Positions 46,830 through 52,581 of a stretch of DNA of 64,000 bases are shown here, in pieces. Position 1 is the stretch's first letter. Each line of letters begins with the position of its first letter. The DNA lies in NCBI GenBank assembly GCA_003989075.1, contig RXIX01000001.1, positions 1 to 64,000 on the forward strand, read 5' to 3'. Made by a program: the position numbers and the translations under genes. This DNA comes from Candidatus Competibacteraceae bacterium. Its GTDB lineage: Bacteria; Pseudomonadota; Gammaproteobacteria; Competibacterales; Competibacteraceae. The notes under the pieces were generated by a model. It searched no databases and was not told the DNA's origin. It saw only the letters and a program-made list of their open reading frames with translations.

Positions 46830-47573
46830 CTATTCAGCCGGTAGCACCAGCGCCAGCAGAGTGGCGGTTTCGACCAGCTCGCAGGCGGCGCCGAGGGTAT
46901 CGCCGGTGATGCCACCGAGTCGATCCAGCAGGCTCTTGCGCAGGGCCAGCAGCCCCAAGCCGAGCACGGTTAGCAGCACGCCACCGATCCAGTCGAGCAG
47001 GGCGATGGTGGTCGCGGCTACCAGCACCACCACCAGGGTGCAGCTCAATCGTGGCAGATAGCTTGCGTAAGGCGCGCCCAGACCGTCGGGCCGCACATAG
47101 GGCGTGGTGACCAGCAGCAGCACGATCGCGGTGCGCCCAAGCACCGGTGTCAGCAGCAGCAGCTCGCGGGCGTCGCCGGCCAGCAGCATCTGCAGAGCGG
47201 CGAATTTGTTCAGCAGCACCAGCACGACCGCCGCGATGGCAATCGGCCCGCTGCGCGGATCCTTCATGATCGCCAGGGTACGGCTACGATCGCCCTGGCC
47301 GCCGATCCAGGCGTCGGCAGTGTCGGCCAGCCCATCCAGATGCAACCCCCCGGTCAACAGTACCCAGAGCGTCAGCAGCAGTGCGGCCAGCACGCCGGGA
47401 TCGCTCAGCCACAGCAGGGTATGCAGGCCGGCCAGCGGCGCACCGATCACCAGCCCGACCAGCGGAAAAAACAGCACCGACAGCCCCAGATCGCGGGGCT
47501 GCGGTGGCGTGGCCGACGCGGGCACCGGCAGCCGGGTGAGCAGCTGCAGCGCCAGGGCGAACGCGCGCATCAT
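46830..47573 (-). CDS. cobS: Adenosylcobinamide-GDP ribazoletransferase (cobalamin synthase)
   Basis: The 247-residue polytopic membrane enzyme has the CobS motifs GGLHLDGLADTADAW and RSRTLAIMKDPRSGPIA. It joins alpha-ribazole (or its phosphate) to adenosylcobinamide-GDP, the last step of nucleotide-loop assembly. The start overlaps the cobC stop by four bases. It is the last gene of cobU-T-C-S, all minus strand. Confidence 0.95.
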   Translation of the reverse strand: MMRAFALALQLLTRLPVPASATPPQPRDLGLSVLFFPLVGLVIGAPLAGLHTLLWLSDPGVLAALLLTLWVLLTGGLHLDGLADTADAWIGGQGDRSRTLAIMKDPRSGPIAIAAVVLVLLNKFAALQMLLAGDARELLLLTPVLGRTAIVLLLVTTPYVRPDGLGAPYASYLPRLSCTLVVVLVAATTIALLDWIGGVLLTVLGLGLLALRKSLLDRLGGITGDTLGAACELVETATLLALVLPAE

Positions 47574-48181
47574 GTCAGGCGGCCGTTATGAAACACCAAG
47601 CGCGGCTCGGCGCCGGGCTCGTGATAGCAGCGGATCCGGCTGAGCGCGGCAAAGGGCACTTCAAAGCGCCACAGATGATTCAGCGGCATGCCCAGCACCC
47701 GGCGCAGCACCATGCGGATGGTGCCACCGTGCGCCACCAGCAGCACATGGCGACCGTGATAGCGTTCCAGCAGGTCGGCCCAGGCCGCACCGATGCGCTC
47801 ATCGAAGGCCAGAACCGGCTCACCGCCCGGGATCGGATGCGCCACCGGATCGGCCCAGAAGCGCGCCAGGGTGACCGGATCGCTGGCATGGACCTCGGCG
47901 ACGCTGCGCCCTTCCCAGACGCCAAAGCTGATTTCGCTGAAACCGGGCATGATCTCCAGCGGCCGGTCCAGACGCGCGGCCAATTCGGCAGCGAACGCGG
48001 CGCAGCGGCACAGGGGCGAACTGACAATCGCCTCCCAGTCCCGGTAGTCGCCGGCGGCAGCGCGCATCTGCACCCAGCCCAGCGCACTGAGCGGATCATC
48101 AATCGCGCCGCGAAATTTCTGGCCGCCATCGGGTTCGCCATGGCGCAGCATGTCGATCAGGGTAGCGCTGCCCAGGTTCAT
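47570..48181 (-). CDS. cobC: Alpha-ribazole phosphatase (histidine phosphatase family)
   Basis: The 203-residue protein has the catalytic RHGE motif ([12 protein letters not shown]), a second arginine in [11 protein letters not shown], an acid in [13 protein letters not shown], and the second histidine in [14 protein letters not shown]. In this operon it should dephosphorylate alpha-ribazole-phosphate or cobalamin-phosphate. It overlaps both neighbours by four bases. Confidence 0.9.
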
Positions 48182-49221
48182 GCGGAGGACACTCCTGCTT
48201 CGGCAAAGGTGGCCATATCGGCCTGTACGGCGGCGGCGGCGCGCAGCAGCGGCAGAGCGACCGCCGCGCCGCTGCCTTCACCGAGGCGCATCTCCAGTTC
48301 CAGCAGGGGTCGCGCATCGAGCGCCTGCAGCAGACGGCGATGGCCCGGTTCGGCAGAGCAATGGGAATACAGCAGCCAGTCGGCCAATTCCGGGCGCAGA
48401 CGCACCGCCGCCAGGGCCGCTGCCGTGGTGATGAAACCATCCACCAGTACCGGCAGGCCAAGCTGGCCGCAGCGCAGGTAGGCCCCAGCCAGAGCAACGA
48501 TCTCAAAACCGCCCAGTGTCTGCAGTACCGTCAGCGGTTGCGGGTCGCGCAGCAGGCGCAGTGCCTGTTCGATGACCTGACTTTTACGCTGCACACCGGC
48601 GGCATCCAGGCCGGTGCCGGGACCGGCGAGTTGCGCGGCCGGCAGATCGAGCAGGGCGCAGGCGATGGCGGTGGCGCTGGTAGTGTTACCAATGCCCATC
48701 TCACCGCCGATGAACAGGTGCGCGCCGCCGATCGCCGCCCGTTCGGCGGCATCGTGGCCTGCGGTCAGAGCATCGTGCAGCTGCGCAGCACTCATCGCCG
48801 GACCCTGGGCGAGATTGGCAGTGCCGGGACCGACCCGGTTATCCAGTACCCCGGGCAGGTCTTCCAGCGGGTGTACCGTGCCGACGTTGACTACTTCCAG
48901 ACGTGCGTTCCAGGTCCGCGCCAGCACACTGATCGCGGCGCCGCCGCGGGCGAAATTGCGCACCATCTCGGCGGTCACCACCTGGGGAAAAGCCGAGATG
49001 CCCTCGGCGACTACGCCATGATCAGCGGCGAACACGGTGATCCAGGGGGTATCGAGGTGTGGTCGGACACTGCCCTGCAGTGCGGCCAGGGTGATGCCGA
49101 GTTCCTCCAGACGGCCGAGTGAGCCGGGGGGCTTGGTCAGTTGCGCTTGTCTCGCATGTGCAGCGGCGCGCACTGCCGCATCGGGTACGGCCAGAGGTTC
49201 TTCAAACCAGCGGGGATTCAA
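48178..49221 (-). CDS. cobT: Nicotinate-nucleotide:dimethylbenzimidazole phosphoribosyltransferase
   Basis: The 347-residue protein has [48 protein letters not shown], a catalytic glutamate region near the C-terminus ([14 protein letters not shown]) and [10 protein letters not shown]. It makes alpha-ribazole-5'-phosphate, the lower ligand of B12. It overlaps cobU upstream and cobC downstream by ATGA. Confidence 0.95.
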
Positions 49222-49736
49222 GCAGTCTGCTCCTTGAGTGTGAGGGGGAGGCCAGCGATGACCAGCGACACCCGGTCACAGCACGCGGCAACTGCCTGAT
49301 GCAGGCGACCGGCCTCATCGCGAAAGCGCCGGGCCAGCGGATTAAGGGGGACGATACCCTGACCGACCTCGTTGCTGACCAGCAGGATGCGGCCGGGCAG
49401 GGTGGGCAGCGTGGTCAACAGTGCATCGAGTTCCTGGTGCAGCGTGGTGTCGCCAGCGGCCAGCAGGTTGTTCAGCCACAGAGTCAGGCAATCGACCAGC
49501 AGGCAGCGATCCGGGGTGGCGTGGGCGCGCAGTGCGGCGGCCAGGGCCAGCGGCTCCTCGACCAGGCCCCAGTCGGCTGGGCGCTCGGCGCGGTGGCGGG
49601 CGATGCGCGCGGCCATTTCAGCATCGCCCGCTTCGGCGGTGGCCAGATAGGTCACGGCAAAACCGCTGGCCAGAGCCTGTCGCTGGGCGAAGGCGCTTTT
49701 GCCGGATCGGGCACCACCAAGAATTAATTCTTTCAT
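49218..49736 (-). CDS. cobU: Adenosylcobinamide kinase / guanylyltransferase
   Basis: The 172-residue protein has the P-loop [15 protein letters not shown], a nearby [33 protein letters not shown] and [21 protein letters not shown], all CobU/CobP features. It phosphorylates cobinamide and adds GMP. ATG 49736 is the first methionine before the P-loop. The upstream 180 bases show no B12 riboswitch. A methyltransferase gene reads away on the other strand. Confidence 0.95.
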
Positions 49737-49919
49737 GAGATCAGATGCTTGTGTTTGCAGCGGGATTTGTTTTTGCAACAGGCGTGCATTATCGTTGATT
49801 TTCAGCGATTGCCAAACGCGGGCGCTGCCGACCGGGGCTGTGCAGGCCAGGAAATACGGCGCGCGCTGTATTCCGATAAGGTCCGATAACGCTGCTTTTA
49901 CCCAATACACGAGGATGCC

Positions 49920-50693
49920 ATGAGCCATTCTTCACAGACGGCGCCGCAGGTATTCAGTGACCACTTTGCTGCAGTCGCTGCGGCCTATGCTGATTTTCGC
50001 CCGCGCTATCCGGCAGCCCTGCTGGCCTGGCTGGCGGAGCACGCGCCGGCGCGGACGCTGGCCTGGGATTGCGCAACGGGCAGCGGCCAGGCAGCGCTCG
50101 ATCTGGCGCCGCACTTTGCGCGGGTCATTGCCACCGATGCCAGTGCCGCGCAGATCGCGACCGCGCCGGCCCATCCGGGTGTGGAATACCGGCTTGCACC
50201 TGCCGAGGCCTCGGGACTGGCGGACGCCAGCATCGATCTGATCACGGTGGCACAGGCTCTGCACTGGTTTGACCTGGAGCGGTTTTACGCCGAGGCACGG
50301 CGGGTGCTCAAGCCGGGCGGGCTGCTGGCGGTGTGGAGCTATGGCGTGCCGCGCCTACCGGATGCGATCCTGGATGCGCCGGTGCAGCACTTTTATTGGC
50401 AAATCGTCGGGCCGTACTGGCCTGCCGAACGCCGGCATGTCGAGAACGGTTATCGGGATTTACCGTTTCCATTCGCGCAATGCCCGACGCCGGAATGGAC
50501 CCTGGAACTGGCCTGGACCCTGCCCGAGCTACTCGGCTATTGTCGCAGCTGGTCAGCGACCGGCCGTTATCGTGCCGCTCATGGCCATGATCCGGTGGTG
50601 GAGCTGGCCGCGCTGCTGGAGCCGCTGTGGGGCGAGCCGGCGCAGCGCCAGCCGATTCGCTGGCCACTGGCGGTGCGGGTGGGCCGCTGCTGA
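49920..50693 (+). CDS. Class I SAM-dependent methyltransferase
   Basis: The 257-residue protein has a Rossmann SAM-binding start (LAWDCATGSGQAALDLA), the acidic residue in IATDASAAQI, an AEASGLADASIDLI loop and VLKPGGLLAVWSYG. It resembles the trans-aconitate/UbiE-like methyltransferase group; its substrate is unknown. GAGG lies five bases before ATG 49920. It is divergent from cobU and about 95 bases before the FtsZ-like gene. Confidence 0.85.
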   Translation: MSHSSQTAPQVFSDHFAAVAAAYADFRPRYPAALLAWLAEHAPARTLAWDCATGSGQAALDLAPHFARVIATDASAAQIATAPAHPGVEYRLAPAEASGLADASIDLITVAQALHWFDLERFYAEARRVLKPGGLLAVWSYGVPRLPDAILDAPVQHFYWQIVGPYWPAERRHVENGYRDLPFPFAQCPTPEWTLELAWTLPELLGYCRSWSATGRYRAAHGHDPVVELAALLEPLWGEPAQRQPIRWPLAVRVGRC

Positions 50694-50789
50694 GTGTGGC
50701 CGCAGCGGCAAGGCCGTGTGAGTGGACAGCGGTTGGTGCAGGGTTCTGAATTTCCTTTAACACTGCAGAAATGCAGAACGGAGAACGGC

Positions 50790-51698
50790 ATGGCGATAGA
50801 GACGCAAGGCGGTGAGGCCTGGCGCGATCTGGATTCCAGCACCGATTCGATTACGGAGCAGGCCGCGCTGATTGGTCTGGGTTCGCGGGGCTGCGAGCAG
50901 CTACAGCGCCTGTGCCGGGCGGGGCTGGAAAACGTGACTGCATTCCTGATTGATCATGACAGTGCCGCGCGCCGCGCCGATGATTTGCCCGTGCCGAGCT
51001 ACTGGATTGGCAATACCGAAACGGTCGCCGATTTCGCGGCCTGCACCCTGCTCGGACTGGTGATCATGGGTGTGGATCATCAGGAAGGGTCGGAATGGCT
51101 CAGTCTGCGTTTGGGGCTGCTGCGCGAGCGGCCGATGCTGCTGCTGGGCATCGTGCTGCCGGCGGCGCCTGTTGTGGTTCCGCGGCGGCGCCCGGAGCGC
51201 TGGCGTGAGCTGGACAGTGTGATCGAATGGCCGGCGCTGCTGAATCCGGCGGCGGATCTGATCCTGTTGCGCGATGTCGTCGATGACCTGATTCGGGCCC
51301 TGCTTGATCCGGATCCACTGGGTGCCAATTTTGCCGAAATGCTGGCGGTGTTCGGCGATGCGCGCACGGTGTATACGGCCAGTCTGGGGGTGGAGCCGGC
51401 GGCGACTGTGGCCTGGGCGCCGGAAACGCTTGATATCCTGATCGGACAGGTGACGCGGCAGGGCCTTGATCCGCAGCGTACCCTGGGTCTGCTGGTGGTG
51501 GTGCGGGGCGGCGATGCGGCGGCGGGCGCAGCACTGCGGGCACTCCTGGAGCAGCGTCTGCCGCAGGGCGTGCTTCTGGCCGTGGCGGTACCCGATGCCG
51601 GGAATCCGGCCGCAGGCGGTGTGTTGCGAGTCACGCTGTTTGCCACCACAGCGGGTCTGGCGATGTCCAACGTTGCGCGCCGGGGGCTTTCCACCTAA
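50790..51698 (+). CDS. Divergent FtsZ-like protein with degraded GTPase motifs
   Basis: The 302-residue protein aligns by eye with FtsZ: ALIGLGSRGCEQL ... LENVTAFLIDHDSAARR for the first Rossmann strand and loop, LGLVIMGVDHQEGSEWL where FtsZ has its GGGTGTG signature, ANFAEMLAVFGDARTVYTA where FtsZ has NVDFADVRTVM, and a C-terminal LRVTLFATTAG for the ELRVTVVATG strand. The glycine-rich tubulin signature and the catalytic T7 acids are not conserved, so GTP hydrolysis is doubtful. There is no C-terminal FtsA-binding tail. GGAG lies six bases before ATG 50790. It precedes rpsF on the same strand. Confidence 0.6.
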   Translation: MAIETQGGEAWRDLDSSTDSITEQAALIGLGSRGCEQLQRLCRAGLENVTAFLIDHDSAARRADDLPVPSYWIGNTETVADFAACTLLGLVIMGVDHQEGSEWLSLRLGLLRERPMLLLGIVLPAAPVVVPRRRPERWRELDSVIEWPALLNPAADLILLRDVVDDLIRALLDPDPLGANFAEMLAVFGDARTVYTASLGVEPAATVAWAPETLDILIGQVTRQGLDPQRTLGLLVVVRGGDAAAGAALRALLEQRLPQGVLLAVAVPDAGNPAAGGVLRVTLFATTAGLAMSNVARRGLST

Positions 51699-51713
51699 AA
51701 TACCGGCCCCTTG

Positions 51714-51731
51714 CGGCCCGGTACCGGGCCG
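51714..51731. repeat. 18-base perfect palindrome before rpsF
   Basis: CGGCCCGGTACCGGGCCG is self-complementary throughout. It lies 15 bases after the FtsZ-like stop and 57 bases before rpsF. It may end the upstream transcript or form part of the rpsF leader. Confidence 0.45.
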
Positions 51732-51740
51732 TGACTCCTT

Positions 51741-51763
51741 GCCTCACCGCCACGGCGGGAGGC
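51741..51763 (+). promoter_or_regulatory. Hairpin in the rpsF leader, possible ribosomal-protein autoregulation site
   Basis: GCCTC, A, CCGCC, then AC, then GGCGG and GAGGC form an almost perfect stem with one bulged A. It ends 25 bases before the rpsF start. In many bacteria an S6:S18-binding leader hairpin with a CCG bulge controls this operon. The resemblance here is positional and only partly structural. Confidence 0.4.
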
Positions 51764-51788
51764 TGCCCCGTATCCGTAAGGAGCCTAC

Positions 51789-52196
51789 ATGCGACATTAC
51801 GAAATCGTGTTCATGGTCCATCCCGACCAGAGCGACCAGGTCCCCGCGATGATCGAGCGCTATCGCGCGATGATCGAAGAGGACGGCGGCCAGATTCACC
51901 GTCTGGAGGACTGGGGCCGGCGCCAGCTGTCCTACCCGATCAACAAAGTGCACAAGGCGCACTATGTGCTGATGAACATCGAGTGCAGCCAGCCGGTTCT
52001 GGATGAACTGGAAAGCGCCTTCCGCTTTAACGACGCGGTCATCCGCAACCTCATCCTGCAGCGCGACGCCGCCGAGACCGAGCCTTCGCCGCTGATCAAG
52101 ATGCGCGATGAGCGTCCCGAGCGCGAGGATCGCGACGAGCGCGGTGGCCGTGGCGACCGCGACGACGACGGCGACGACGGCGACGACGACGCCTGA
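51789..52196 (+). CDS. rpsF: 30S ribosomal protein S6
   Basis: The 135-residue protein starts [19 protein letters not shown] and has the S6 core ([20 protein letters not shown], then [12 protein letters not shown]). S6 binds S18 on the platform of the small subunit. Its C-terminal 30 residues form a low-complexity Asp/Arg/Glu/Gly tail ([19 protein letters not shown]), encoded by GAC/GGC repeats. AAGGAG lies ten bases before ATG 51789. Confidence 0.97.
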
Positions 52197-52218
52197 GCCC
52201 GCTTCGGGCGTCGCTGCC

Positions 52219-52581
52219 ATGCCGTCCGCACCGGCCGCCGATAACTGCCTGATCATTGCCGGTCAGGTCGCTGGCCCCTGTGAACAGCGCGCCACACCGG
52301 CTGGCATCGCCATCAGCCGCTTTCTGCTGGACCATGTGTCCGCCCAGATTGAAGCTGGCTGGCCGCGCGAAGTACGCTGCCGGATTCCGGTCATGGCCTG
52401 CGGCGAACCGCTGGCACGGATTGCCGGCCGGCTGTCGGTCGGGGCCCGTGTACGGGTGCGTGGCTTTGTTGGCCGCGCCAACCCGCGCGAGGGCGAATAC
52501 CGGCTGGTGCTGCACGCTGCCCGCATCGACGTTCTCGATTCCGCAACCATCGAATCATCCGTATCTGCATCCGAGGATTGA
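52219..52581 (+). CDS. priB: Primosomal replication protein N (PriB)
   Basis: The 120-residue OB-fold protein has CLIIAGQVAGPCEQRATPAGI, FLLDHVSAQIEAGWPREVRC and IPVMACGEPLARI, matching PriB between rpsF and rpsR in gammaproteobacteria. PriB binds ssDNA and bridges PriA and DnaT in replication restart. ATG 52219 lies 22 bases after the rpsF stop, where a small GCCCG/CGGGC hairpin (52197-52209) occurs. Only a weak ribosome site is visible. Confidence 0.85.
   Translation: MPSAPAADNCLIIAGQVAGPCEQRATPAGIAISRFLLDHVSAQIEAGWPREVRCRIPVMACGEPLARIAGRLSVGARVRVRGFVGRANPREGEYRLVLHAARIDVLDSATIESSVSASED

Follow-up and report, generated by a model that had tools for sequence, protein, structure and literature searches.

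The 302-codon open reading frame ahead of rpsF in the window (the whole 64,000-nucleotide stretch of Competibacteraceae DNA that was analysed) is, judging from sequence comparison and structure prediction, a real gene encoding a remote homologue of FtsZ, termed pseudo-FtsZ here. That it is homologous to FtsZ and has lost the GTP site is close to certain, and it is apparently a real, narrowly distributed and undescribed variant of the FtsZ family. We propose that it is a pseudo-GTPase paralogue acting as a dispensable, non-polymerising regulator of FtsZ, and give this statement as a whole a little less than an even chance. The positions of the features discussed are collected in Table 1. The ATG start is plausible, with GGAGA ahead of it; an alternative in-frame GTG at 50694 would extend the product to 334 residues, and both orthologues begin near the ATG instead.

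Table 1. Pseudo-FtsZ, its loop positions, its neighbours in the window and its orthologues
Feature	Position or contig	Strand	Remarks
Class I SAM-dependent methyltransferase	49920..50693	+	Methyltransf_11, E 2.5e-18; upstream neighbour
Pseudo-FtsZ coding sequence	50790..51698	+	302 aa; one FtsZ core domain, no C-terminal tail
T1-loop position	50871..50897	+	Residues 28-36, IGLGSRGCE vs FtsZ IGVGGGGSN; orthologues IGLGRRGC(D/E)
T2 position	50952..50960	+	Residues 55-57, DHD vs FtsZ NTD; D55 and H56 invariant in three orthologues
T4 position (GTP signature)	51069..51098	+	Residues 94-103, GVDHQEGSEW vs FtsZ GMGGGTGTGA; orthologues GAEH(R/H)DK(S/T)EQ; H97 and E102 invariant
T7 position	51321..51338	+	Residues 178-183, GANFAE vs FtsZ NVDFAD; orthologues ETDLAD and EADFAG
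TAAAAT promoter-like box and two-hairpin rpsF leader	51696..51788	+	Box overlaps the pseudo-FtsZ stop; Shine-Dalgarno in second hairpin
rpsF, ribosomal protein S6	51789..52196	+	Ribosomal_S6, E 1.1e-30; downstream neighbour
Orthologue in genome G015	WBUJ01000042.1		'Candidatus Contendobacter sp.'; 42% identical to window copy
Orthologue in genome G012	RXIW01000002.1		'Candidatus Competibacteraceae bacterium'; 39% identical to window copy

The homology could be shown only with the help of the orthologues, because the window sequence alone gave no tubulin/FtsZ match in Pfam (the sole match was ThiF, E 0.031); a profile of the family's FtsZs scored it at only 1.9 bits. A profile of the three orthologues, by comparison, reached as much as 37.5 bits with FtsZs, whereas 200 column-shuffled decoy profiles did not exceed 7.0 bits and the reversed profile gave 4.0 bits, so that the colinearity with FtsZ noted in the original prediction is not due to chance. 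The three-row profile led to FtsZ in nearly every Competibacteraceae genome (E 1e-8 to 1e-4 per genome), most FtsZ matches lying at 26-37 bits, and each FtsZ extracted from the matched loci carried both GGGTGTG and NVDFAD. Two blocks are colinear: model positions 17-62 correspond to FtsZ 17-62, and 149-288 to FtsZ 191-326. Comparison of profile with profile in hhalign aligned 268 columns with FtsZ (E 5e-6, probability 86%), two of the three members matched NCBIfam TIGR00065 (ftsZ; best E 3.3e-4), and the best 20 matches of the profile among PDB sequences were all FtsZ (E 2.9e-5 to 1.6e-3). For calibration, RsmI scores about 19 bits with this profile, and matches below about 20 bits are not to be trusted. 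A wider FtsZ-like set drawn from weak profile matches (loci L037-L040) was rejected as chance similarity at about 19 bits, the products being, as we take them from their sequences, RsmI-type rRNA methyltransferases. Proteins of the pseudo-FtsZ type can escape single-sequence Pfam scans.

AlphaFold2 models, built from the three sequences, reached pLDDT 62.8 and pTM 0.66 for the window protein and pLDDT 75.3 and pTM 0.78 for the G012 orthologue. When the models were compared with the PDB using Foldseek, the best 50 matches listed were all FtsZ in both cases. The best E value was 9.0e-14 (TM about 0.66) for the window protein and 3.5e-16 (TM 0.70) for the orthologue, for which TM by query length rose to 0.74 among the matches listed. 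Both models are therefore FtsZ-like, as the original prediction would have it, and the two-domain FtsZ fold is present in pseudo-FtsZ as modelled.

The GTP site of FtsZ is formed by T1, T2, T4 and T6, and loops on the same face make the contact with the next subunit. Alignment of the three copies with the family FtsZs showed that T1 has changed from IGVGGGGSN to IGLG(S/R)RGC(E/D), T2 from NTD to DH(D/E), and T4 from GMGGGTGTG to G(V/A)(D/E)Hxxx(S/T)E (GVDHQEGSEW in the window copy, GAEHRDKSEQ and GAEHHDKTEQ in the others). The GGGTG(S/T)G signature is accordingly absent, and its predicted replacement is confirmed. The stretch S3-T3-H3 (KGLGAGANP...) is mostly deleted, and the T5 region and the region from T6 to early H7 are shortened. 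H8 to S10 are retained in order, and the protein ends just past strand S10 without the linker and the C-terminal conserved peptide of the DIPAFLRRQ type, which is present in the Competibacteraceae FtsZs. IGLGSRG at the start (residues 28-34) and LRVTLFATTAG close to the C-terminus are both found as had been described. GANFAE had been assigned to T7/H10; it does occupy the T7 position, but the segment is T7/H8 and not H10. The claim that the T7 acids are replaced holds for the window copy, but not fully for its orthologues, since that of G015 (ETDLAD) keeps TDLAD and that of G012 (EADFAG) one aspartate; none of the three segments fits NxDxxD. A canonical ftsZ with GGGTGTG and NVDFAD is located elsewhere in the same genome. 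By alignment, pseudo-FtsZ has thus lost the GTP loops, several of the subunit-contact loops of the top face, and the C-terminal linker with its conserved peptide. Since T1, T2, T4 and T6 constitute the GTP site and loops of the same face the subunit contact, GTP binding in the usual mode is unlikely, and so is self-polymerisation.

Pseudo-FtsZ was found as three intact copies and one relic among 39 Competibacteraceae genomes; beyond the family, samples of 369 genomes of the class and 399 of the phylum contained none. Plasmids, phages and IMG/VR gave no match, and an origin from a mobile element was therefore rejected. The relic (G049:C357, locus L041, 4600-4760) is a remnant matching ...LAAPAGEGWQERMRVSLFA that lies right before rpsF and after repeat-like DNA. 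Beside it is palindromic DNA with the look of a repeat, CCCCTCCTTAGCCAAGGAGGGG, which gives the impression that the rest of the gene was lost to a small mobile repeat. Another apparent remnant of 23 residues, beside the methyltransferase gene in genome G019 (E 0.019), was discarded because the frame around it appears on inspection to encode an unrelated protein. The genera with an intact copy or the relic are g1, g8 and g13; in the FtsZ tree, g1 and g13, two of the three carriers, fall in a group without resolved branching. The simplest reading is an ancestral gene followed by repeated loss; transfer may be the alternative.

The gene is located outside any division gene cluster. The order methyltransferase, pseudo-FtsZ, rpsF is found in the window and in G012, and the methyltransferase gene lies upstream in all three loci. 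In G015 the methyltransferase gene is followed by one that we take from its sequence to encode a small lipoprotein-like product, and another, presumably of GGDEF type, separates pseudo-FtsZ from rpsF. The methyltransferase gene is also present in eight family genomes without pseudo-FtsZ, and the DNA upstream of rpsF differs in the other family genomes, where pseudo-FtsZ is absent. The fixed place before rpsF suggested originally could consequently not be upheld: intact copies occur in three of the 37 rpsF-bearing family genomes and the relic in one, a GGDEF gene intervenes in G015, and a survey between the methyltransferase gene and rpsF in related genomes found that the order is not constant and the gene mostly absent. 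The proposed involvement in ribosome-coupled growth was rejected as well, given this variable order and the promoter-like box (TAGAAT/TAAAAT) and two-hairpin leader that rpsF has of its own. Because box and leader are conserved family-wide, with or without pseudo-FtsZ, there is no sign of a tie between pseudo-FtsZ and rpsF function. From its sequence the leader looks like an autoregulatory leader of the S6:S18 type; an Rfam search at this position gave no family match at E <= 1. The leader is strongly conserved across the Competibacteraceae, and in its second hairpin the AGGAG ribosome-binding site stands opposite CTCCT. Rfam also reported mir-598 on the minus strand at 52164-52235 (27.9 bits against a cut-off of 69), probably a low-complexity chance match in the GAC-rich end of rpsF. 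Upstream of the methyltransferase gene, on the opposite strand (46830-49928, minus strand), lies a cluster resembling late cobalamin steps, in which we presume by eye CobS-, CobC-, CobT- and CobU-like products.

Between G015 and G012, amino-acid identity is 59% in pseudo-FtsZ, compared with 77% in the methyltransferase and 92% in rpsF. For this pair, NG86 estimates for pseudo-FtsZ were dN 0.31, dS 0.82 and dN/dS about 0.38; pairs with the window copy gave 0.46-0.48, the upstream methyltransferase about 0.2 and rpsF 0.05-0.09, all these ratios being rough as dS is high. R33, C35, D55, H56, H97 and E102, which stand among the replacements in T1, T2 and T4, are invariant in the three copies. Invariant columns amount to 9/13 and 5/7 in T1/H1 and 12/18 in H4/S5, against 32% overall in the three sequences; segments of the same length elsewhere along pseudo-FtsZ do as well in about 5 to 12% of cases, and the peaks at T1/H1 and H4/S5 are suggestive only. 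The dN/dS comparisons describe a fast-evolving but selected protein.

Two other readings are less likely. Were it a Rossmann-type protein of other descent with a fortuitous likeness to FtsZ, the failure of Pfam to find a tubulin/FtsZ domain in the window sequence, with nothing but ThiF in its place, and the chance match of the profile to RsmI would be understandable. This reading is already contradicted by the sequence and fold searches and is scarcely credible, as two colinear blocks are shared with FtsZ at scores far above the decoys, FtsZ ranks first in every PDB sequence and fold search, and the matches include the C-terminal tubulin/FtsZ domain, which Rossmann enzymes do not have. Somewhat better placed, though still improbable, is an evolutionary relic: a copy of ftsZ, made by duplication, that is being lost and does little or nothing. 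It would agree with the few intact copies in the family, with the mere 23-residue C-terminal remnant left ahead of rpsF beside repeat-like DNA in G049, and with divergence faster than that of the neighbours. Against it, three genera have kept the frame open for about 300 codons, the N-terminal region is strongly conserved and a complete fold is predicted for the orthologue (pLDDT 75); the invariance of the replacement residues among the copies and a dN/dS of about 0.4 argue against decay.

As to function, pseudo-FtsZ would neither bind GTP in the manner of FtsZ nor form a treadmilling filament of its own. Being FtsZ-shaped, it would most likely dock on FtsZ by one of the two longitudinal faces and serve as a dispensable negative regulator, either an end cap or a sequesterer of monomers, like SulA, MciZ and ARC3. 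Modulation of the Z ring, raised in the original prediction, is thus kept as a hypothesis by analogy, and the mechanism just outlined is tentative, its probability lying rather below one half. Any role is taken to be dispensable because most family genomes lack the gene. Alternatively, the former GTP site of the FtsZ fold may now take another ligand (a dinucleotide, an adenylate or a metal), which would make the protein an enzyme or sensor unconnected with FtsZ filaments and perhaps a partner of the methyltransferase encoded next to it; we consider this somewhat unlikely. The replaced loops are conserved, including G29-x-G31-x-x-G34 followed by an invariant D55 that ends strand 2 in the dinucleotide-binding style, and R33, C35, H56, H97 and E102 are invariant as well. 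However, GxGxxG is already contained in the T1 loop of FtsZ, and three sequences are too few to tell a site from general conservation. The Rossmann NAD/ATP pattern is present and invariant in all three, with Pfam matches only at E 0.03, below the curated cut-off. Echoes of ThiF, TrkA_N/RCK, MoeB and 6-phosphogluconate dehydrogenase in Pfam and the PDB point towards a re-purposed pocket, but are weak (E 0.01-0.3) and confined to the N-terminus, within the first 40 or so residues common to Rossmann-like folds. Likewise, the methyltransferase gene is upstream in all three loci, yet also accompanies no pseudo-FtsZ in the eight genomes mentioned above. The more specific proposal of a rebuilt GTP pocket binding another nucleotide or a metal, which would turn pseudo-FtsZ either into a ligand-gated Z-ring regulator or into a non-cytoskeletal enzyme, is unlikely. 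Among the orthologues, conservation is highest on the surface that was once the nucleotide face (T1/H1, H4/S5), whereas the T7 loop is variable; this pattern fits a T7-side cap poorly, would fit docking by the top face, and does not appear to favour the regulator over the re-purposed pocket. The FtsZ regulator is ranked slightly above the re-purposed pocket because FtsZ-shaped faces are kept and precedents exist.

Replacement of a known inhibitor was considered and rejected. SulA was found in only one of the 39 family genomes, a non-carrier of pseudo-FtsZ, so that its distribution is uninformative, and no replacement pattern is seen for SulA or MinC. Of the carriers, G012 and G015 both have MinC. 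In the window genome minC was not found; minE lies on a 3.5-kb contig (G000:C189, L122) that ends where minC should follow, and an assembly gap at the contig end is the most likely explanation. If pseudo-FtsZ does bind FtsZ, it would represent a home-grown pseudo-enzyme inhibitor of division; if it does not, the FtsZ fold would be re-usable outside the cytoskeleton.

Pseudo-FtsZ shares with canonical FtsZ (NCBIfam TIGR00065; Pfam PF00091 plus C-terminal domain) the order of secondary structure elements and both domains, and can be aligned from S1 to S10. It differs in lacking GGGTGTG, the C-terminal linker and the FtsA/ZipA-binding peptide, in its altered T1 and T2, in the shortened S3-H3 and T6-H7 stretches and in its place outside the division cluster, and the window copy also lacks the T7 acids. 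FtsZl1 and FtsZl2 are likewise divergent bacterial FtsZ-like proteins occurring alongside a normal FtsZ, and are described as having the GGGTG(S/T)G loop and an extra C-terminal region, either a coiled coil or about 300 residues (Makarova and Koonin 2010; PMC2875224). By that description pseudo-FtsZ, at 302 residues, differs from them in having neither the loop nor an extra domain, and it is its C-terminal half that gives the best FtsZ match. Archaeal FtsZ paralogues without functional motifs were noted in the same study (PMC2875224). The FtsZ of Nitrosopumilus maritimus, a natural relative without the GTP-binding motif and also without the T7 loop, did not polymerise in yeast (PMC3684127); this protein is archaeal, whereas the host of pseudo-FtsZ also has an intact canonical FtsZ. 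In the open literature we found no report of a bacterial FtsZ relative lacking the GTP site alongside a working FtsZ; natural FtsZ relatives without a GTP site have so far been reported in archaea and, with a regulatory role, in chloroplasts. The chloroplast protein ARC3 has an FtsZ-like domain. As a negative regulator of FtsZ in plants (PMC5471200), ARC3 is analogous to the role proposed here, that of an FtsZ-related negative regulator alongside canonical FtsZ. It differs from pseudo-FtsZ in its long C-terminal region, which contains a MORN motif and has no counterpart here. SulA acts on the T7 side of FtsZ by capping or sequestering it, and MciZ caps filaments (PMC4929429). Neither is an FtsZ homologue, and their likeness to pseudo-FtsZ would be one of functional analogy only, in that the proposed outcome is FtsZ assembly blocked at one end.
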